Positions 14,142-23,036 of a stretch of DNA of 36,758 nt are shown here, piece after piece. Within the stretch, counting starts at the first letter, position 1; each line of letters opens with the position of its first letter. The translations under genes and the position numbers were made by a program. Below the pieces are notes generated by a model. It made no database searches, had not been told where the DNA came from, and was given only the letters and a program-made list of their open reading frames with translations. Source of the DNA: Candidatus Wolfebacteria bacterium RIFOXYB1_FULL_54_12 (GTDB lineage Bacteria > Patescibacteriota > Minisyncoccia > UBA6257 > UBA9933); contig MGIT01000001.1 in the NCBI GenBank assembly GCA_001793895.1, positions 61,413 to 98,170 of the forward strand. The letters run 5' to 3'.

Positions 14142-16856
14142 CTATTTATTTACATATTTACCATACAATTCAAACAAGAAATTCATTCGCTCAGCAGAAG
14201 AACCAAGAGCACGTTTGCCATAGGCTAAGTCCACTGCCTTATCTAAATTTTTATGCGCCTTTACTAAATCGGCAGGCATTGTGAGGGAATCGTATAAATC
14301 AGCCAACGAATTATTTAGGTATTTTGCACGCACATCCAAAACATCTTGTGCTGATTTTTCAACAGCTTTTATTTTCTCACTACTTGGGCTTTCTGGCCAA
14401 GGGAAATTATTGTATACAATATCCTTAGAATACCGATAATCGCTCTTCAAGCGTCCGCAAACATAGCCAACCCATGTCATATGCATTTCACTCTCAAGCA
14501 CCCCAAAATGATAAAGGGTTGCATTTGGTATACTCATACATGTATCGCCAACAATACTTTCTTTACCAAAAAATCCCATCGGAATATACTTACGATTTTC
14601 TGAAGAAACACGTGGGATTAAAACATAATTTGAGCTCGGCTGATGATTCTCGCCAAATAATGCGGGCTTGTCAGCTAATTTAATCGTGGCTGGCCTTTTG
14701 CTTTTTAAACGAAAATCTCTCACGGCTTGAATACGCCGCATCACTTCTGGCATGCTTTTTAATTCCTTGGGATCAGAACCAGCAAGCCAAAGGCAATACC
14801 GTTTTCCTCCATTCAAAAATCCTTGAGCACCAATCAATGGCCTAATGAATTTCTTTACCAAAGATTCTTGCCTAATTAAATCATCCCGCTCTTCTTCATT
14901 TAGAATCAGATTGCCACCATCATTTGGCATGCTACCAAAACTCATTTCAGGAACTTTATTAAGTGGCTTTTGCCGCGATCCTATTACAACATCGTCGCCT
15001 GGAACTAAATACGGATTAATATTTTTTACGCTAATCTCATGCGCCTCCCCTTTCACGCTCTCATACTCGTAAAGCTTTTTCTTTTCTATATTAAAATCAC
15101 CAAAACCGATGATTACACAGTAGACAGCAGCCTTGCCCCGCGCCTCGTTACTCCATCTAAAGGTTTTATGTGCGAAATGAATTTTAATCCCGCGTTTCAA
15201 TAACTCTCCCCATAAAATTCCAACTTGCTCGCCTTGAGTAATAGAATTAGTGGAAACAAAAGCGCACCTTATTTTTGAGCCGCTAATGTATGCGGCCGCT
15301 TTAGCATACCAAGCAGTTACATAATCTAAGACGCCAATTCCCTTTACTTTGCCAAAGGCTAATTCTAAATCATGGCGTTGATCTACGCTCATCATTTTTG
15401 AGCCAACAAAAGGAGGATTTCCAAGAATATATGCCAACTCATTTTTCGAAACAACCTCTTCCCAATTCTTTTCCAAAGCATTACCCGTATAAATATGAGC
15501 GCCTTTAACCAGAGGTAAATCAGGGATATTTACACCGAACTTCTGTCCGACTAATTCATTCATCTGATGGTCCATCAACCACATGGCCGTTTGCGCTATG
15601 CGGGCAGGAAAATCATCAATTTCAATCCCATAAAATTGCTCGGGCTTTACTTTTATATATGACTTCAGATCTAAAGACATCTGATTTGCGGATTTAAGAC
15701 GCCGCTTTAATACCTCAAGCTCCAAAAGCCTCAACTCACGATAAGCAATAATCAAAAAGTTCCCGCAACCACAAGCAGGATCAAGAAATTTAAGCTTTGA
15801 TAATTTCTCCTGAAATAAAGCCAGATTTTTATCGTTTTTACCGCATGCATCCAGCTCATCCTGTAATTCATCGAGGAAAAGTGGCTTTATTAGTTTTAAA
15901 ATATTCTTCTCGGAGGTATAGTGCGCACCAAGATGTCGACGCGCTTCTTTGTCTATAACAGCCTGAAATAAGGACCCGAAAATTGCCGGGGAAATTGCGG
16001 ACCAATTAAAAGCACATGCCTCGAGCAATCTATTACGCATGCTGGAATTAAACGAAGGAATAGTAATATTTTCTTCAAACAATCCTCCATTTACATATTC
16101 AAATTGTGCCAACTCTTCATCTAATGTTGTGGAGCGTTTTTCTCTTGGCGTATTAAAGACCTGAAACAACATTCCTAAATGCATTCCTAAATCACTCCCA
16201 TCGGTACCGGTTCTTGTTTCAATATATCTACGAAATTGATGCCCGTTAAAAATAGCGGCGTCTTCTGCAAATAAACAAAACAATATCCTCACAAGCAGAA
16301 CATTAAGCTCATGCCCAACATAACCCGCTTCTGCGATCGCATCATATAGGCGACCCATTAACTCCGCGGCTTTGATATTCACCTCATCTCCCTCTTTATA
16401 TTCTTGCTTCTTATATCCGGCTAAAAATCCGAGTAGGCCAACTTTTTTAGAAAGCTCTTTTAGAGAAAACTCCGTTTCTGTACCCTCCTCAATATCGTAT
16501 AGTTTAAATTTTTCAAAATCAGAAACGAGGATATATTTTGGCAGATCCCTTTCAGAAATACCCGGGAAATAATCCATTGCTTGCGCGTAAGCCTTTTCTA
16601 AGCTACGACCACGCGACTTATGCTCAACTATCAACATACCCGGCCAAAAAAGATCAATAAATCCGCTATTTCCACCATATTTCTTTACTTCAAACTCAAA
16701 ATTAGCCAAACGCCTCCGCGTTAGACCAAACACATTAAAAAAGCCGTCCCAAAAAGACTTAGCTTCTGCGTCTTCCGATTTTTCATTTTCCCATTCTTTA
16801 GAAAACTCGACCGCTCGCGATTTTATTTCATTCCAGGATAAGGGCATATTTTGCAA
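14142..16856 (-). CDS. MmeI-like type IIL restriction-modification enzyme
   Basis: 904-residue single-chain enzyme that both methylates one strand of its site (N6-adenine) and cuts at a fixed distance; MmeI itself is about 919 residues. The nuclease motif is Asp68-x9-Glu78-x-Lys80 (FIDLF...VEHK), the same spacing as MmeI. A helical linker follows, then LGAHYTSEKNI (309-319), SAM motif I LDPACGCGNF (358-367) and catalytic NPPF (480-483). The remaining 400 residues hold the target-recognition and C-terminal regions. No separate S or R subunit is needed or seen. It is the last gene of the island and has its own boundary repeat. Confidence 0.93.
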   Translation of the reverse strand: MQNMPLSWNEIKSRAVEFSKEWENEKSEDAEAKSFWDGFFNVFGLTRRRLANFEFEVKKYGGNSGFIDLFWPGMLIVEHKSRGRSLEKAYAQAMDYFPGISERDLPKYILVSDFEKFKLYDIEEGTETEFSLKELSKKVGLLGFLAGYKKQEYKEGDEVNIKAAELMGRLYDAIAEAGYVGHELNVLLVRILFCLFAEDAAIFNGHQFRRYIETRTGTDGSDLGMHLGMLFQVFNTPREKRSTTLDEELAQFEYVNGGLFEENITIPSFNSSMRNRLLEACAFNWSAISPAIFGSLFQAVIDKEARRHLGAHYTSEKNILKLIKPLFLDELQDELDACGKNDKNLALFQEKLSKLKFLDPACGCGNFLIIAYRELRLLELEVLKRRLKSANQMSLDLKSYIKVKPEQFYGIEIDDFPARIAQTAMWLMDHQMNELVGQKFGVNIPDLPLVKGAHIYTGNALEKNWEEVVSKNELAYILGNPPFVGSKMMSVDQRHDLELAFGKVKGIGVLDYVTAWYAKAAAYISGSKIRCAFVSTNSITQGEQVGILWGELLKRGIKIHFAHKTFRWSNEARGKAAVYCVIIGFGDFNIEKKKLYEYESVKGEAHEISVKNINPYLVPGDDVVIGSRQKPLNKVPEMSFGSMPNDGGNLILNEEERDDLIRQESLVKKFIRPLIGAQGFLNGGKRYCLWLAGSDPKELKSMPEVMRRIQAVRDFRLKSKRPATIKLADKPALFGENHQPSSNYVLIPRVSSENRKYIPMGFFGKESIVGDTCMSIPNATLYHFGVLESEMHMTWVGYVCGRLKSDYRYSKDIVYNNFPWPESPSSEKIKAVEKSAQDVLDVRAKYLNNSLADLYDSLTMPADLVKAHKNLDKAVDLAYGKRALGSSAERMNFLFELYGKYVNK

Positions 16857-16876
16857 AAAATAAAAGCTTACTATAG

Positions 16877-16919
16877 CTTACCAAATTCCACCTTATTTAT
16901 AAACCAACCAAAAATCCCA
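16877..16919 (-). repeat. Island boundary repeat, copy E (before the MmeI-like gene)
   Basis: Plus-strand CTTACCAAATTCCACC, then TTATTTATAAACCAACCAAA, then AATCCC. It ends 20 nt before the MmeI-like start; on the coding strand TATAGT follows directly. The terminator hairpin half seen in copies C and D is lost. Confidence 0.85.
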
Positions 16920-16971
16920 TATTTTATAGATATTTAATTTAATACATTCACTTCCTGAATATAATGGTTAT

Positions 16972-17997
16972 CTACACTAACTTTGTGCGATACATTCCAA
17001 TTGAATACTTCGGAAAATGAAAGGTAAAAGTATTTTTCGCATATTTGATTCCATCTGCTTCAGAATTTTGCGAAAGATCAGGGAAAACCTGAGCTGAAAT
17101 CCCACTCCTATCTAATGCTTTTTTTAACTGATACATACCTATACCACTCCCGCGCAAATCTTCAGGGACGCAGCGGCCAGAAAACCCCCTATCAAAAATT
17201 TTATTAACTTCGTCCTTTTCAATACGTATGCTTTCCATTTCAAAAATCAATTCACCGGTTTCATTTCTCGTATATACCGCAACCTTAGAATATGGTTTTG
17301 AATACTTAACTATATTCTCGAGAAAGCTATGCATCGCGATATTAAATGTTTCATACTCAAAAGAACATTGGAAATTTTCACCCACATTATATAAGCTAAA
17401 TGTTACGCCTTTTTTCTTTAGTAAATCAAAAAACAAATGAGAGAGACCAAGTAAAAAATTCCTGAGATTATGATTATCTGTAATAGCAAGTATTGAGGTA
17501 GTATCGCGAAGTAAATTATATCCACCGATATGATAATCTACTAAACGAATCTCTTTTGAAAGTGCGCAAATATCTTCCGCAAAATCATCAGGGTTCTCTT
17601 GTATATTTTTCTTTACCGACTGAATAAATTCACCGTAATTCTCGCGTCCTTCAGCTCCTAAAATACATCTTTCTACGATGCTTTTTTGATTTCCATGAAT
17701 CTTAATTATATTATGCAAGTAATCATCCGTCATTTCTTTAACTTTATGCGATGTTTGCGCTACAAAATCCTTCAATACTATTTCGATGACAGAAATGAAA
17801 GTATTAAAAACTTTATTACTGTTTGTAATCCTCTCCTCATCCGCTATCAAAACTTCTAAAGTTCCAAATTCAACATTTCTACGATTGTAACGAGTCTTAT
17901 TTCTATTTTCATTTTCCTGATCAGGGGTAATAAAATCAGCAGGGAATGTATTTACTAAAATATCATTATTTTTATTTGTAATCCTTAGATAAATCAC
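16972..17997 (-). CDS. Histidine-kinase-like ATPase (cytoplasmic)
   Basis: 341 residues without membrane segments. The C-terminal part is a GHKL ATPase: N-box SFLENIVKYSK (225-234), an F-box-like FDRGFSG (268-274) and G2 GSGIGMYQLKKAL (283-295). The central region is helical and may hold a dimerisation domain, with His84 or His95 as candidate phospho-acceptors, but the canonical H-E-x-x-x-P motif is missing. The N-terminal 60 residues are unrecognised. It lies 22 nt downstream of the membrane-anchored receiver gene, forming an atypical two-component pair inside a defence-type island. Confidence 0.75.
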   Translation of the reverse strand: MIYLRITNKNNDILVNTFPADFITPDQENENRNKTRYNRRNVEFGTLEVLIADEERITNSNKVFNTFISVIEIVLKDFVAQTSHKVKEMTDDYLHNIIKIHGNQKSIVERCILGAEGRENYGEFIQSVKKNIQENPDDFAEDICALSKEIRLVDYHIGGYNLLRDTTSILAITDNHNLRNFLLGLSHLFFDLLKKKGVTFSLYNVGENFQCSFEYETFNIAMHSFLENIVKYSKPYSKVAVYTRNETGELIFEMESIRIEKDEVNKIFDRGFSGRCVPEDLRGSGIGMYQLKKALDRSGISAQVFPDLSQNSEADGIKYAKNTFTFHFPKYSIGMYRTKLV

Positions 17998-18019
17998 AAT
18001 TTAGCAACTTCCTTAGAAA

Positions 18020-18538
18020 TCAATGAGATAAATTCATCATATGACCCATTTTTTCTATATAAGGAAACCCGACTAATCCATCGAAATCCTGCACAGATGA
18101 GTAAATAATATAGCGTTTTTTATTTTTATAAACGCGCTTTAACTCATTAATAAGGCCAAGCCCCTCCTTTTTGCCAAAAAGCTTTTTACCAATATCTTTA
18201 TAGTCAACAAAAATTATATTAGCCCACTGCACATCATCATTCTTTTGAAGAGATAATACATCATCGATTTTTCGAACTTCAAAATTATTCCGACGCAAAT
18301 TTGTTACAATCTGACAATCTTTATCATCGATAAAAAGGATTTTAGCAATTTTTTGCACATCATGAAAATCTTTTGGCATTTTATTCTCATACTGAGAAAG
18401 AACCCATGCTATAAGCAAGGTCAATCCAATAATAATAATTGCTAATATTTTCGAATCCGAGAAAAAATAAGAAACAATTGCCACAACCAGTCCCATTAGA
18501 GAAATTAAACCTTCATTTTTATTAATTTTTCCTATCAT
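18020..18538 (-). CDS. Membrane-anchored receiver-domain protein
   Basis: 172 residues: two transmembrane helices (about 11-26 and 31-47) and then a receiver-like domain (66-172). The acidic pocket is Asp71-Asp72 (KILFIDDKD), the predicted phospho-acceptor Asp112 (IIFVDYKDIG) and the switch Ser region YSSVQD (146-151). There is no DNA-binding output domain, so the receiver itself, tethered to the membrane, is the output or a localisation device. It is co-transcribed with the ATPase gene that follows. Confidence 0.7.
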   Translation of the reverse strand: MIGKINKNEGLISLMGLVVAIVSYFFSDSKILAIIIIGLTLLIAWVLSQYENKMPKDFHDVQKIAKILFIDDKDCQIVTNLRRNNFEVRKIDDVLSLQKNDDVQWANIIFVDYKDIGKKLFGKKEGLGLINELKRVYKNKKRYIIYSSVQDFDGLVGFPYIEKMGHMMNLSH

Positions 18539-18584
18539 GAAATTTGTTAATTAACCCCGCATTCTCAACTTAAGTTTTATAATC

Positions 18585-18656
18585 TTACCAAATTCCACCC
18601 CATTAAGAAACCAACCAAAAATCCCGCAGGGATGCGGGGGGGTCTGGTTGGTTTCC
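18585..18656 (-). repeat. Island boundary repeat, copy D, with terminator
   Basis: Plus-strand CTTACCAAATTCCACC, then CATTAAGAAACCAACC. The distal end holds the hairpin CCCGCA-TCCC-TGCGGG followed by ATTTTT on the minus strand, nested within an outer GAAACCAACC/GGTTGGTTTC pair. It ends the 18734 gene and precedes the receiver gene. Confidence 0.88.
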
Positions 18657-18733
18657 ATTAATTAGCACTTTGAGTACTCTAACAATTACTTACTATTTAG
18701 AAAACAAATTTGAGTAGCCTGATACATATTTAT

Positions 18734-19057
18734 TCAGGAAAATTTACCCCAATCGCGTGGAATAAACCAATCATAAGGAGGGTCCCATGTAATATAATCA
18801 GCAGGTTCAAATTTTTGCTCAAGAACTTCAAGGGAAATTATCTGATCTGGTAAAATAGATAAATTATGAGTTCCCTCGGGGCTATCAAGGTCATAGAAAT
18901 GATATCTGTCAGGATTTATTGATAGGTTTCTTCTTGATGGCCCAAAATCAAAAGGAATACATTCTCTTTCAATAATCCCCTTTTCTTGTGAATTGAACCG
19001 TAGCTTCACAAATTTTAATTCCGCAATTGCTTTTAAAAAATTATTGTGAATATCCAT
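18734..19057 (-). CDS. Small hypothetical protein, possibly WYL-like
   Basis: 107 residues. The run of short strands (FVKLRFNSQEKGIIERECIP, YHFYDLD, NLSILPDQIISLEVLE) and the spacing between them resemble a WYL domain, the ligand-sensing Sm-like fold found in many defence regulators, but the WYL triad itself is not obvious and no helix-turn-helix is attached. It stands alone between two boundary repeats. Confidence 0.55.
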   Translation of the reverse strand: MDIHNNFLKAIAELKFVKLRFNSQEKGIIERECIPFDFGPSRRNLSINPDRYHFYDLDSPEGTHNLSILPDQIISLEVLEQKFEPADYITWDPPYDWFIPRDWGKFS

Positions 19058-19113
19058 ACATAAAAATATTTTATTAATTATTACCCCTCTCTAATTGCAA
19101 CATCTTTCTTAAG

Positions 19114-19170
19114 CTTACCAAATCCCACCCCATTTTGAAACAAACAAAAAATCCCACAGAAATGCGGGGG
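19114..19170 (-). repeat. Island boundary repeat, copy C, with terminator
   Basis: Plus-strand CTTACCAAATCCCACC, then CATTTTGAAACAAAC. Minus-strand hairpin CCCGCA-TTTC-TGTGGG followed by ATTTTTT terminates the methyltransferase unit. Confidence 0.87.
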
Positions 19171-19171
19171 T

Positions 19172-20032
19172 TTATAACTGAACCTTTGTCGGCTCAAGAA
19201 TATTTGGAACCTTTAACCCCCTACTAAAAAATAATACCTCCTTCCCTATTTTTGCCTCGCGAGCTGTATGAAAAAATGAATATTCAATTTTCTTACAACC
19301 GCTGTATAAATTATTTATTTCTGAAACATTATCATAGGAAACTATCCAATTAATATTTTTTATTTTCTTAATCGCATTACTAACAGCCTCATGGTCACCA
19401 TACTCATAAGCATTCATATACAAAGATTCCCCTTTTAAGTAATATGGGGGATCAAAATAAAAAATAGTTGAAGAATTTTTAGATACTTTCTGAATTTCTT
19501 TGATTAACTCAAGCGCATCGAGATGGCGGAGATTTATTTTCTCCTTATGTGCTGCGATCTTTCGAATTCGCTCAATAAGGCTTGTCTTATTAAATCGACA
19601 ATCCATTTTATAATATCCTTTTTGATATAGACCTCCAATTATCCCCCCATCAAGAATGCCAGATCGATTTGTCCGATTAAGAAAAAAGGTTGAGAATCCA
19701 AGATCCAAAAGCGAAGCATCTTTTTTATTCCTTTGAACCTGCTTGAGCTTCTTCCAATTTTTAACACTAACTTCAGTTTTCTCAATCAGATCGCAAAATT
19801 CATCCGTATGCTCTAATATTGCATACCAAAACGCGTAAATAGAGAGATCAAAATCATTAATCGTAATTTTTGAAACATGCCCCTCTAATAACAAAAACAA
19901 AGCCACACCCGCCCCTCCCGCATATGGTTCAACATAATGCCCACTAATATTGTTGGTTTCACAAACTAAAGTAACAAATTTTGCCAATTTGTTTTTACCA
20001 CCAGGATATCTTAAAGGGGAATAGAAGGCCAT
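19172..20032 (-). CDS. D12-class N6-adenine DNA methyltransferase (Dam-like)
   Basis: 286 residues. RYPGGK (8-13) and EPYAGGAG (35-42) bind S-adenosylmethionine, and DPPY (194-197) is the catalytic motif; the order is that of the alpha class. The family methylates adenine in short sites such as GATC; the target here is not known. The start is three bases after the ParB-like stop, so the two are almost certainly translated together. No cognate endonuclease lies in the same unit, although the HNH gene is directly upstream. Confidence 0.92.
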   Translation of the reverse strand: MAFYSPLRYPGGKNKLAKFVTLVCETNNISGHYVEPYAGGAGVALFLLLEGHVSKITINDFDLSIYAFWYAILEHTDEFCDLIEKTEVSVKNWKKLKQVQRNKKDASLLDLGFSTFFLNRTNRSGILDGGIIGGLYQKGYYKMDCRFNKTSLIERIRKIAAHKEKINLRHLDALELIKEIQKVSKNSSTIFYFDPPYYLKGESLYMNAYEYGDHEAVSNAIKKIKNINWIVSYDNVSEINNLYSGCKKIEYSFFHTAREAKIGKEVLFFSRGLKVPNILEPTKVQL

Positions 20033-20034
20033 GA

Positions 20035-21294
20035 TTATTTTTTAAAATAATGATCTAAAATATCCGCAACTATTTTAGATGTGGCCAAAATACCCTCCCT
20101 TGTATATTCAATATTTCCATGAGCATATTTTTGCAAAATAGCATTTAAATTCATCCTGTCTGAAAGCCAATCATTTGTTAGTGATAAGCTATTTTTATCG
20201 GTCTGATTTAAATTATTTTTAGCTTCTTTTAAAAATTTTGACGCAACCTGATCATCCTCCACCGCGCCTTGATAATACATCCTTGCAGCAACTTCAATCA
20301 ATAAGCGAAGTGCCATCCCGATAAACGGAAGAACGGCGTCATCCTCTTTGGTTCTCGTATCAATATCCACCAATGCGCGGTATAAATCATTAACCTTACC
20401 TGGTTTCAGCATAAGCGCCCGACCAAATAACTCATTGGACATTTTTGTTACTGGCGTTTTCCGAATCCTTTTCTCTTGAAGATCGCCTTGAATATCCAAA
20501 ACCATATTCTTTCTTGCCGCATCAAATTGAACCACCCTCCCTTCTAATTCAGGATATTTCTCTAAAAGAATTTTCTTCAATTCTCCGCGGTTATCACGCG
20601 TTGTTACGGCTTTATCTTTTATAAGTGCTGGGACTTTCCCAAGAATTTCTTTTGCGTCTTGCTCAGAGTAGTTAGAAACGATACCCTTTTCTTGATCCAC
20701 ATCGAAACCTATCTGATTAAGATTTCTTTTCGTTAAAACTTCATCCTTTACAAATCTTTTATTAAGTAAAGGATTGTCTGTGATAAGCCTGGTCTGCTCG
20801 TCGATCCTTAAGAATACACTTTTCGCATATCCCCTGTGAACATTGAGAAAATACTCTCTTTCCAAAACTCCCCAAGAGCCGTTACTACTATGCTTTCGTT
20901 CGATATTAGTCAGGGCCGTATTTACATCACAAATATTACAAGGAATTTTAGTTAGTACCCTTAACTCGTTTGGTTCAAGTTTAAAAAATAACCCCCCTCC
21001 AAGAGATGCATACAAATCTTCACTCTGTAGGTACTTTAGTACTGCAATTCTACGATTCCCATCGTAAACAACAAATCTTCCGTCTACATTTACTACAGTT
21101 GGAAGTTCACTAAAATCATAATAACTACCCATCTCAGATATAAGATTTTGCAAATTCCACTTTGTAGGATTCCCTGCTATTGCCCTCTTAATAATCTCAT
21201 GATCTGTGCTATCTACATTAATTGGATCCCGTGGATTCTCTGACCAAAGATGCAGATCATCAAGTTTAATTTCTTGTATTTTTTGCTTAGCCAT
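20035..21294 (-). CDS. ParB-like N-terminal domain protein (419 aa)
   Basis: Residues 5-90 fit the ParB/sulfiredoxin fold, with the motif DGNRRIAVLKYL at 78-89. In ParB this pocket binds CTP; in related proteins of accessory DNA it serves as a nuclease or NTPase. The remaining 330 residues are mostly helical and unrecognised, with no helix-turn-helix that I can define. It sits two bases upstream of the Dam-like gene, so the pair is one functional unit. A GAGGG sequence about 12 nt before ATG can serve as Shine-Dalgarno. Confidence 0.75.
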   Translation of the reverse strand: MAKQKIQEIKLDDLHLWSENPRDPINVDSTDHEIIKRAIAGNPTKWNLQNLISEMGSYYDFSELPTVVNVDGRFVVYDGNRRIAVLKYLQSEDLYASLGGGLFFKLEPNELRVLTKIPCNICDVNTALTNIERKHSSNGSWGVLEREYFLNVHRGYAKSVFLRIDEQTRLITDNPLLNKRFVKDEVLTKRNLNQIGFDVDQEKGIVSNYSEQDAKEILGKVPALIKDKAVTTRDNRGELKKILLEKYPELEGRVVQFDAARKNMVLDIQGDLQEKRIRKTPVTKMSNELFGRALMLKPGKVNDLYRALVDIDTRTKEDDAVLPFIGMALRLLIEVAARMYYQGAVEDDQVASKFLKEAKNNLNQTDKNSLSLTNDWLSDRMNLNAILQKYAHGNIEYTREGILATSKIVADILDHYFKK

Positions 21295-21342
21295 AGAATA
21301 GAACTTCCCTCAATTCGCCTCTCAATTTATATATCTTAATAT

Positions 21343-21390
21343 CTTACCAAATCCCACCCCATTTATAAACCAACAAAAAATCACGCGGGG
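21343..21390 (-). repeat. Island boundary repeat, copy B (before parB-like/dam-like)
   Basis: Plus-strand CTTACCAAATCCCACC, then CATTTATAAACCAAC. The terminator half is degenerate (AATCACGCGGGG). Confidence 0.85.
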
Positions 21391-21417
21391 ATAATGGATT
21401 TTCCCGGCACATTTAAT

Positions 21418-22116
21418 CTATATATCACCGATAACGCCCAAATCATAAATATCCAGCTTCCCGTCATTATTTAAATCGGTACTATCAAGCGTTCCTCGTT
21501 TCTCATGCAATCCATATATCAATTTTAAATATTTACCCAAAACTATACGCGGAACCTCGTATTGTTTCTCTTTCTTATACCATTCAAAAGGATCCCTCCC
21601 TGACTTTTCCAAATTACATTTCTTGCAAGCCTTTACCATATTATCGATAGTATCTAAATCTATCTTCTTTTTAGGAATAATATGCTCCCATTCAAGATTT
21701 TCTAAACTATCGCAATATGCGCATACATTATCAGATTCCACAAACATCTTATTTTCACGCAAAATTTGGGATGGCTTAATATGCTCATCCTTTAATTTCT
21801 TATAAGTATGCATCACAAACCCATAATTTTTCCGATCCCCAACCGCACTCCCTGCGATTAATTTCGCATACTCCCAATAGATCAAATCTCGTATTGTTTT
21901 TACTGAAGCGTGTGGCATATATTTCTTTTTATTCCGCCTCCTGATATAATACATTAAAAGGCGTATGTTTTCCAACAAATCATTCACTTCAATATCTGCA
22001 AAAATATTCCTGTTTATACAACTGACAGGCATTTTTACGATCTTGACAAACTCTTCAAGTGCTGGTATGTTGCCTATAGGCAACATACCAGCACTTGAAG
22101 AGCCTTCTCTTGACAT
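21418..22116 (-). CDS. HNH endonuclease with C-terminal dockerin-like calcium loop
   Basis: 232 residues. The HNH core is at about 132-176: CAYC (132-135), EWEHIIP with His145, DNMVKACKKCN with CxxC (164-167), then DPFEW. These are the zinc-knuckle and catalytic positions of HNH homing or restriction nucleases. The end of the protein contains DLNNDGKLDIYDL (214-226), an EF-hand-like loop of the dockerin I type, which is unusual on a nuclease. If translation starts at 22116, residues 6-23 are coded by a 52-bp perfect palindrome; the Met at 22032 is an alternative start. No Shine-Dalgarno supports either. Confidence 0.8.
   Translation of the reverse strand: MSREGSSSAGMLPIGNIPALEEFVKIVKMPVSCINRNIFADIEVNDLLENIRLLMYYIRRRNKKKYMPHASVKTIRDLIYWEYAKLIAGSAVGDRKNYGFVMHTYKKLKDEHIKPSQILRENKMFVESDNVCAYCDSLENLEWEHIIPKKKIDLDTIDNMVKACKKCNLEKSGRDPFEWYKKEKQYEVPRIVLGKYLKLIYGLHEKRGTLDSTDLNNDGKLDIYDLGVIGDI
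22051..22102. repeat. 52-bp perfect palindrome at the 5' end of the HNH gene
   Basis: Perfect inverted repeat centred between 22076 and 22077, core CCTATAGG, arms CTCTTCAAGTGCTGG. It shares the CTATAG centre with the palindromes at 12635 and 13380 but not the arms. It lies eight bases from the ncRNA promoter -35 box. Confidence 0.92.
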
Positions 22117-22139
22117 TATTTACGCTTAAGCTCTATACT
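22110..22139 (+). promoter_or_regulatory. Promoter of the candidate ncRNA
   Basis: TTGACA (22110-22115), an 18-bp spacer, TATACT (22134-22139) on the plus strand, antisense to the HNH start region. Confidence 0.65.
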
Positions 22140-22143
22140 TAAA

Positions 22144-22236
22144 TTGATCGAAAGGTCAAGAACTCTGTAGCTTGGGGGCTCCGCAAGGAGTCCCCTTGGC
22201 TTAAAAGACCACGTCTGTTAGATGTGGTCTTTTAAT
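22144..22236 (+). ncRNA. Candidate structured small RNA, about 90 nt
   Basis: Between a near-consensus promoter and a strong terminator lies a non-coding stretch that folds as three hairpins: TTGATC-GAAA-GGTCAA (22144-22159), GGGGCTCC-GCAA-GGAGTCCCC (22175-22195, one bulged T) and the terminator (22203-22233). Two of the loops are GNRA tetraloops, which are favoured in real RNA structures. It has no good open frame. It runs divergently from the HNH gene and towards the 3' end of the NYN gene. No known RNA family is recognised. Confidence 0.6.
22203..22233. terminator. Bidirectional terminator of the ncRNA and the NYN gene
   Basis: Fourteen-base-pair stem (AAAAGACCAC arm, one G-T pair) with a GTT loop and T-runs on both strands. 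Confidence 0.85.
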
Positions 22237-22242
22237 AAAGGC

Positions 22243-22998
22243 TTATTTAATTTTATCCTGAATGCCTTGGGGGATCTCTCTTGGCCAACAGATAAATTCT
22301 CGAATCTTTTTAATATCAAAAATAGGGACTCCCGAATTGGCGAGCTCAACCGAAACCCTCCGAGCAGTTGCAAATAAAAATACTTTTTTACCGTCATTAA
22401 GTAGCTGGATGACTGGATCGGCAAAATCACTATCACCGCTCCATAAAATAAAGCTCTTCGTATGGTTATTACCAAAATCAAAAAGCATATCCCTGCCTAT
22501 CTCAACATCGAAATTACACTTTTTATCCTCAATATAAAAAATCCCTTGTTTATTAAGATCTAATAATTTTCGATTAAGGAATTCTATAGTCTCGACAGAA
22601 AGCTTTAATAATAAAGCCTTCTTAATGAAATGTTCTAATAGCGCTGGCGAATTTGATTGGATACTCGTAGCATCGATGGAAATGTTCATTATCTTTACCG
22701 GCTTCGTTTTTAAACCATAACGCAATTCGCTTGCAGCTCGTATCCACTCCTCGGATCTTTGATCTCCATTTAATGTTCCGTAATATATTTTTGTTTCTTT
22801 TACCTGGTCGAATGAATCGAGAAATTGTTTTAATCTTTTTAAATCAATATGCCAACCAAGACGATCCTGCCAATGAATGACATTAGCATAGTCAATATAA
22901 ATATTAGAGTTACCATCAAAAATTTCCTCCAGCTCAATAATAGTCTGTGGGAATATTTTTCCTAATTTTATAAGCTTATCCGTTCGTGGGTTAAACAT
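22243..22998 (-). CDS. NYN domain (PIN-like) ribonuclease
   Basis: 251 residues from ATG 22998. The NYN/LabA-type metal-binding acidic residues are visible: Asp in IYIDYANVIHW, Asp in CNFDVEIGRDML and two in LWSGDSDFADPVIQLL. The family cuts RNA and occurs in toxin and defence contexts. The frame extends nine codons upstream, but those are coded by boundary repeat A, so 22998 is preferred. It is the first gene of the island in the direction of transcription. Confidence 0.85.
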   Translation of the reverse strand: MFNPRTDKLIKLGKIFPQTIIELEEIFDGNSNIYIDYANVIHWQDRLGWHIDLKRLKQFLDSFDQVKETKIYYGTLNGDQRSEEWIRAASELRYGLKTKPVKIMNISIDATSIQSNSPALLEHFIKKALLLKLSVETIEFLNRKLLDLNKQGIFYIEDKKCNFDVEIGRDMLFDFGNNHTKSFILWSGDSDFADPVIQLLNDGKKVFLFATARRVSVELANSGVPIFDIKKIREFICWPREIPQGIQDKIK

Positions 22999-23005
22999 AC
23001 TCAAT

Positions 23006-23036
23006 CCTACCAAATTCCACCACATTTATAAACCGG
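23006..23036 (-). repeat. Island boundary repeat, copy A (before the NYN gene)
   Basis: Plus-strand CCTACCAAATTCCACC, then ACATTTATAAACC; truncated, and only seven bases from the NYN start codon. Confidence 0.8.

Follow-up and report, generated by a model that had tools for sequence, protein, structure and literature searches.

A conserved structured RNA convergent with an NYN nuclease gene in Patescibacteria

The DNA analyzed here, a 36,758-nucleotide stretch of a Candidatus Wolfebacteria genome (the window), contains a conserved and structurally constrained RNA gene, RNA-A, which is tied physically and evolutionarily to a subfamily of NYN nuclease genes, NYN-A; both conclusions are well supported computationally. 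The bacteria concerned account for a large part of bacterial diversity and are mostly uncultured parasites with tiny genomes, and to our knowledge few small RNAs have been described for them. As to function, we give roughly even weight to the proposal that the locus may be a self-contained module of two genes, one for the RNA and one for the nuclease, that works in the manner of a type III toxin-antitoxin or abortive infection system without belonging to that family.

At the window locus, RNA-A is preceded on the forward strand by a sigma-70 type promoter (22110-22139) made up of TTGACA (22110-22115), an 18 nt spacer and TATACT (22134-22139), which agrees with 11 of 12 consensus positions and had already been recognized in a first-pass annotation of this DNA. 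The core RNA, about 62 nt long (22142-22203, forward strand), starts 2 nt past the -10 box and is scored by covariance model R1 at 72.9 bits (E = 4e-13); the window copy is one of the 12 training rows of R1, and 67 held-out loci also match the model. Both hairpins described in the annotation, one with a GAAA and one with a GCAA loop, are found. Hairpin 1 (22144-22159, UUGAUC-GAAA-GGUCAA, in which a GNRA loop is common) begins near the predicted transcription start and is followed by a single-stranded linker (22160-22168) whose approximate consensus, taken together with the start of hairpin 2, is AAUUCUANAGCUU. Hairpin 2 (22169-22201) comprises a GC clamp, a U-rich internal loop and GGGGGCUCC-GCAA-GGAGUCCCC, with a conserved G.U pair; in relatives it forms an intrinsic terminator, the GC clamp being present and a U tract following directly after. 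An extra third hairpin (22201-22235, no strand assigned), flanked by A and T runs, is particular to this locus, lies outside R1 and probably serves as terminator for both converging transcripts. The annotation had proposed an RNA of roughly 90 nt with a strong terminator: the third hairpin is present, but it is not part of the conserved RNA, which is confined to the 62-nt core. The minimum free energy of the whole stretch 22110-22236 is -50.1 kcal/mol (z = -6.8), with 0 of 200 shuffles as low, and that of the core by itself is -29.1 (z = -3.95); no pseudoknot was detected in the RNA. The RNA strand has stops in all three frames, in keeping with the reading-frame-free character first ascribed to it. 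RNA-A is single copy in all loci read, and the window contains no tandem repeat of it. In Rfam, no match to RNA-A was found at the gathering threshold in the window, where tRNAs were the sole matches, and none was found for RNA types A-C or E-H; permissive matches (e.g. miRNA families) were rejected as chance, having arisen from an adjacent palindrome.

The conservation of RNA-A was assessed through its relatives. A nucleotide search of 150 related genomes returned two convincing matches, in G140 and G085, both located at the 3' end of an NYN gene and oriented toward it, which is also the layout in the window. With the NYN protein as query, 244 genomes of the order, 380 genomes of the phylum and the GTDB contig collection yielded 79 named loci. 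Most are from Patescibacteria; the remainder are several from Omnitrophota and single MAGs bearing labels such as Elusimicrobia and Terriglobia, the taxonomy being that of the MAG label. One of these loci (L041, from Candidatus Staskawiczbacteria RIFOXYD1_FULL_32_13) belongs to the same species as the window, at 99.97% identity. Model R1, built from 12 copies with the structure written by hand, matches, at E < 0.002, 76 of the 79 loci as well as one viral contig, and 67 of the 76 lie outside the training set. The matches are always antisense to NYN and fall between -47 and +40 nt from the NYN stop where the NYN frame is intact. The three loci without a match are truncated NYN copies, two of them (L111, L113) cut short close to the end of a contig and the third (L118) a fragment, and nothing further was found elsewhere at E < 0.01 in 473 kb. 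The covariance search suggested at the outset thus recovered the RNA beside NYN almost throughout, which also substantiates the link to the NYN gene that had been put forward as a possibility.

In the alignment of 81 sequences, standard pairs fill 89.4% of the pair cells, compared with 76.5% when shuffled, and 260 cells carry double changes, against 80 +/- 11 in shuffles. Sliding the partners destroys this signal, the slid structures having only 3-51 double-change cells. This alignment was fitted to R1; a MAFFT alignment of 12 sequences, which is independent of the model, has 31 double-change cells against 10.7 +/- 3.2. Double-sided changes occur at every pair of hairpin 1. In hairpin 2 the GC/GC clamp pairs are invariant (81/81), the G.U pair is kept in 75/81 sequences and inner-helix cells are paired in 98.4% of cases. 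Column conservation and the alignments indicate that the linker, too, is conserved across the 81 sequences. Hairpins free to differ, with no covariation, had been named beforehand as the observation that would speak against an RNA gene, and the opposite was seen; together with the conservation and the empty Rfam search, the covariation sustains the original description of a novel structured ncRNA. Since the conserved G.U pair would read C.A on the opposite strand, the RNA strand is the functional one.

Promoter strength is distributed unevenly between the two genes. In 62/76 loci, a sigma-70 promoter agreeing with at least 9 of 12 consensus positions lies in a 68-nt interval around the start of the RNA, compared with 6/76 for random 68-mers, and in 33 loci the -10 box ends 2 nt from the R1 model start. 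Promoters of this quality precede NYN start codons, within 110 nt, in 16/72 cases. At a threshold of at least 10/12, the RNA has a promoter in 48/76 loci versus 7/72 for NYN; a strong promoter on the RNA and not on NYN is as expected if an antitoxin must be in excess. These data also bear on the reading in which the element is a mere terminator plus promoter of neighbouring transcription, with no function at the RNA level. Hairpin 2 is a good intrinsic terminator and NYN is close by, as that reading would have it, but hairpin 1 and the linker are conserved though no terminator needs them, compensatory changes occur in both hairpins, and antisense promoters of at least 10/12 are found at the 3' end of 47/73 NYN-A and 8/11 NYN-C genes versus 1/29 core NYN genes and 7/197 other genes. 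We therefore consider it very improbable. A DnaA-box-like sequence, TTATCCACA/TGTGGATAA, abuts the -35 box upstream of RNA-A in many loci, among them L058, L064, L091 and L101, with 16 exact occurrences of TTATCCACA upstream of RNA-A among 77 loci against 0.11 expected; it was rejected as a pair-specific signal, being found upstream of other strong CPR promoters as well.

The partner gene, NYN-A, occupies 22243-22998 on the reverse strand of the window (251 aa from the conserved Met; the longest ORF extends to 23025) and converges with RNA-A. Its product matches the Pfam NYN profile (PF01936) with E = 3.4e-14 and 54 bits, against a cut-off of 24.2, and D36, D164, E166, D189 and D191 are invariant in an alignment of 63 sequences, so that both the profile and the conserved acidic active-site residues that mark NYN membership are found. 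The AF2 model has a pLDDT of 94, and its only significant structure match in Foldseek is VPA0982 of Vibrio parahaemolyticus (PDB 2qip; E = 3e-6, 16% identity). The PADLOC HEC-09 and LabA-like NYN models show weak profile similarity to the NYN domain (E = 4e-5 and 1e-5, respectively). NYN-A is predicted to be an NYN-fold endoribonuclease. No relatives of it were found in cultured plasmids and phages.

Distances between RNA-A copies are correlated with distances between the adjoining NYN proteins (Mantel r = 0.52; 0 of 2000 permutations), and the two genes are convergent and separately transcribed in all loci but one, the sole exception being G047, where the RNA is on the same strand as NYN. The convergent layout, with the NYN stop frequently overlapped by an RNA lying -47 to +40 nt from it, would suit a type I-like control in cis, in which base pairing to the 3' end of the NYN mRNA by the RNA, or else transcription across the RNA gene, silences NYN. 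The structure and the G.U pair are, however, conserved on the RNA strand only, the RNA does not overlap the NYN coding region in many loci, and it is retained where NYN is gone and sits on NYN's own strand in G047; antisense control of this kind is accordingly judged unlikely.

The context of the pair varies widely. No conserved protein neighbour was found, the commonest family besides NYN occurring in 6 of ~75 loci, and the RNA/NYN pair is for this reason regarded as a stand-alone module with a patchy distribution in many unrelated contexts. Several neighbours are restriction-modification genes, and some loci lie within or beside restriction systems; in five related loci (L068, L071, L072, L076 and L084) the module has a type III-like methyltransferase gene on one side and, downstream, a large gene on the other. 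In the window, the pair lies in a defence island (14142-23025) that also holds a type IIG restriction enzyme, a PDC-M43B-like ATPase, PD-Lambda-5 A and B and an HNH gene. The assignment of the RNA to this island holds for its location here, but not for the pair in general. A near-identical 27-nt element, TACCAAATYCCACCNNATTTATAAACC, is found on the forward strand at window positions 16879, 18586, 19116, 21345 and 23008, directly upstream of five reverse-strand island genes (the type IIG restriction-modification gene, two small genes, the PD-Lambda-5_A-like gene and NYN); all five genome copies are within this island, suggesting cassette boundaries or shared control.

The HNH gene had been offered as a second candidate partner, with the RNA as its guide or regulator. 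The RNA promoter does abut the HNH start in the window, but no homologue of the window HNH protein was found at ~75 other RNA-A loci, and the segment that could act as a guide, the single-stranded linker, is conserved and not variable; we consider such a role barely credible. The HNH start called earlier (ATG at 22116) falls within the RNA promoter and shares its frame with a perfect palindrome of 52 bp (22051-22102), and for this reason the HNH protein may in fact begin at a more internal codon. The palindrome itself consists of 26-nt arms without a spacer, is read in frame as part of the predicted HNH N-terminus and lies 8 nt upstream of the RNA promoter; it is single copy in the genome and is also present in the same-species contig L041.

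Further accessory NYN subfamilies in Patescibacteria have different small RNAs in the same convergent position. The group C RNA, with consensus GUCUUUCGGUU..CCAU..AACYGAAAGGGUAUUACAUCCAAGG plus a terminator, is found in 14/14 genomes and has 24 double-change cells versus 7.7; the group E RNA has the hairpin loop GGUUUUGUCC; and groups B, F, G and H have convergent RNAs too, groups B, D and F-H having been read by eye from few loci each. The ubiquitous core NYN genes are without a convergent RNA feature. Of the 52 NYN proteins placed in a tree, the 32 that were scored RNA-positive all fall in one clade (support 97/91), which also holds one unscored row of the same subfamily, with core and other NYNs outside. 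On this basis, the odds appear about level that the accessory NYN clade of Patescibacteria and some neighbouring phyla represents an undescribed class of RNA/protein conflict module, in which control of each subfamily would fall to a separate, dedicated convergent small RNA, with at least seven unrelated-looking RNA types in all. At L155/L156 (G018:C15), an IS200-like/REP-associated transposase gene separates two group E NYN/small-RNA pairs that are ~1.5 kb from each other. At L152 (G010:C26), a different NYN gene is preceded on its own strand by a promoter and a small RNA resembling a terminator, which is the order in type III toxin-antitoxin loci.

Losses of the two components are asymmetric. 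Among the 380 phylum genomes, intact NYN-A is accompanied by RNA-A in 7/7 cases, and three RNA-A copies have NYN broken, reduced or absent: in G486 the NYN gene lacks its middle through a deletion, in G294 a remnant of the last 26 codons is left, and in G450 a weakly matching RNA-A has no NYN. Among the 244 order genomes, intact NYN-C is accompanied by RNA-C in 12/12 cases, and NYN-C is frameshifted, a remnant or absent at 10/22 RNA-C loci, one of which belongs to the window's own genome. No intact NYN-A or NYN-C without its RNA was found in these samples of 380 and 244 genomes. This pattern fits an RNA antitoxin outliving its toxin, but it is suggestive only, since a 750-bp gene is struck more often than a 62-bp one and the same asymmetry is expected under neutral decay. 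An orphan group C RNA is present in the window's own genome (G000:C3:74561-74630; L191, L198), with 59.9 bits and no adjoining NYN-C; this and the other orphans could have a function of their own. The NYN-C of G082 was rejected as a broken gene, because its TGA codons stand at Trp positions and the lineage appears to read TGA as Trp, leaving the gene intact; the TGA codons of the G047 NYN likewise stand at Trp positions, and one apparent frameshift remains there. TGA appears to be read as tryptophan in G047, G066, G082 and G096 (family f27, of the window's order) and in L194 and L197, on the basis of numerous TGA codons that lie in frame in tRNA synthetase genes where canonical motifs have Trp (e.g. 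LVwTTTPwTL, GwDTHGLP); 435 kb of G066 yielded no tRNA-Trp. In the literature checked for this phylum, only TGA=Gly is reported (PMC13293708, PMC8629427).

Several known systems resemble the pair in part. Type III toxin-antitoxin systems (ToxIN, CptIN, TenpIN) likewise have a small structured RNA adjoining an endoribonuclease gene, with the RNA in excess, and are accessory modules of patchy distribution with links to phage defence (PMC5086642, PMC5772629). Their antitoxin RNA, however, consists of tandem nucleotide repeats and lies upstream of the toxin in one operon, with one promoter and a terminator between, and the toxin has a ToxN/AbiQ fold (PMC5086642), whereas RNA-A is single copy and convergent with its own promoter, and NYN-A has an NYN domain by Pfam and an NYN-like match to 2qip, with no ToxN relation found. 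The NYN associated with the type III-B CRISPR system of Bacteroides fragilis is also an NYN-fold RNase working with small RNAs (PMC11346440); here there is no CRISPR array or cas gene, the RNA is a dedicated 62-nt species and not a set of crRNAs, and the gene context is different. The likeness to the candidate defence models HEC-09 and LabA-like is weak and at the level of the NYN superfamily, and those models are without an RNA partner; VPA0982 matches in fold only, and no RNA partner is described for it. RNA-guided TIGR-Tas systems of phages and parasitic bacteria likewise pair a small RNA with a protein in CPR-type bacteria (PMC12045711), but the tandem guide array, Nop-type domain and variable guide segment are all absent here, as is the combination of a variable guide with HNH linkage that characterizes RNA-guided HNH systems. 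No NYN/ncRNA pairs are described in the open-access papers searched, and the pairing is provisionally regarded as an undescribed system.

In the antitoxin reading, the 62-nt structured RNA, transcribed from its own strong promoter opposite a convergent NYN-fold endoribonuclease gene, would fold into a 5' hairpin, an exposed linker and a 3' terminator hairpin, bind its NYN protein and keep the nuclease silent, the conserved linker and U-rich internal loop probably serving as a substrate-like decoy at the active site. Were the RNA supply to fall, for instance when a phage or stress stops host transcription, the nuclease would be released and would cut cellular or phage RNA. This reading is favoured by the linkage, covariation, co-divergence, asymmetric loss, promoter strength, intact acidic residues, patchy stand-alone distribution and restriction neighbours; it is weakened by the same-strand RNA of G047, the orphan RNAs, the option of neutral decay and the fact that the B. 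fragilis NYN is an RNA-trimming enzyme and not a toxin (PMC11346440). That enzyme trims crRNA intermediates in vitro (PMC11346440), which is in line with a different, less probable but still plausible reading, in which RNA-A is a dedicated cofactor or substrate that NYN binds or trims, and the RNP or matured RNA does the work, e.g. in regulation or in sensing foreign RNA. The tight one-to-one pairing, the co-divergence and the persistence of the RNA after NYN loss would all agree with it; against it, there is no conserved target-pairing or guide-like variable region and no third partner gene, and the patchy accessory distribution suits a conflict module better than housekeeping RNA processing.

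The nuclease clade and its small-RNA families, with their repeatable pairing, provide a testable protein/RNA system, probably of phage defence or genome conflict, and add several new RNA families that existing annotation had missed. The orphan RNAs, one of them in the window's genome, make the idea of an anti-addiction function testable. If the proposed class is borne out, it would constitute a new, non-operonic type of RNA-antitoxin system.
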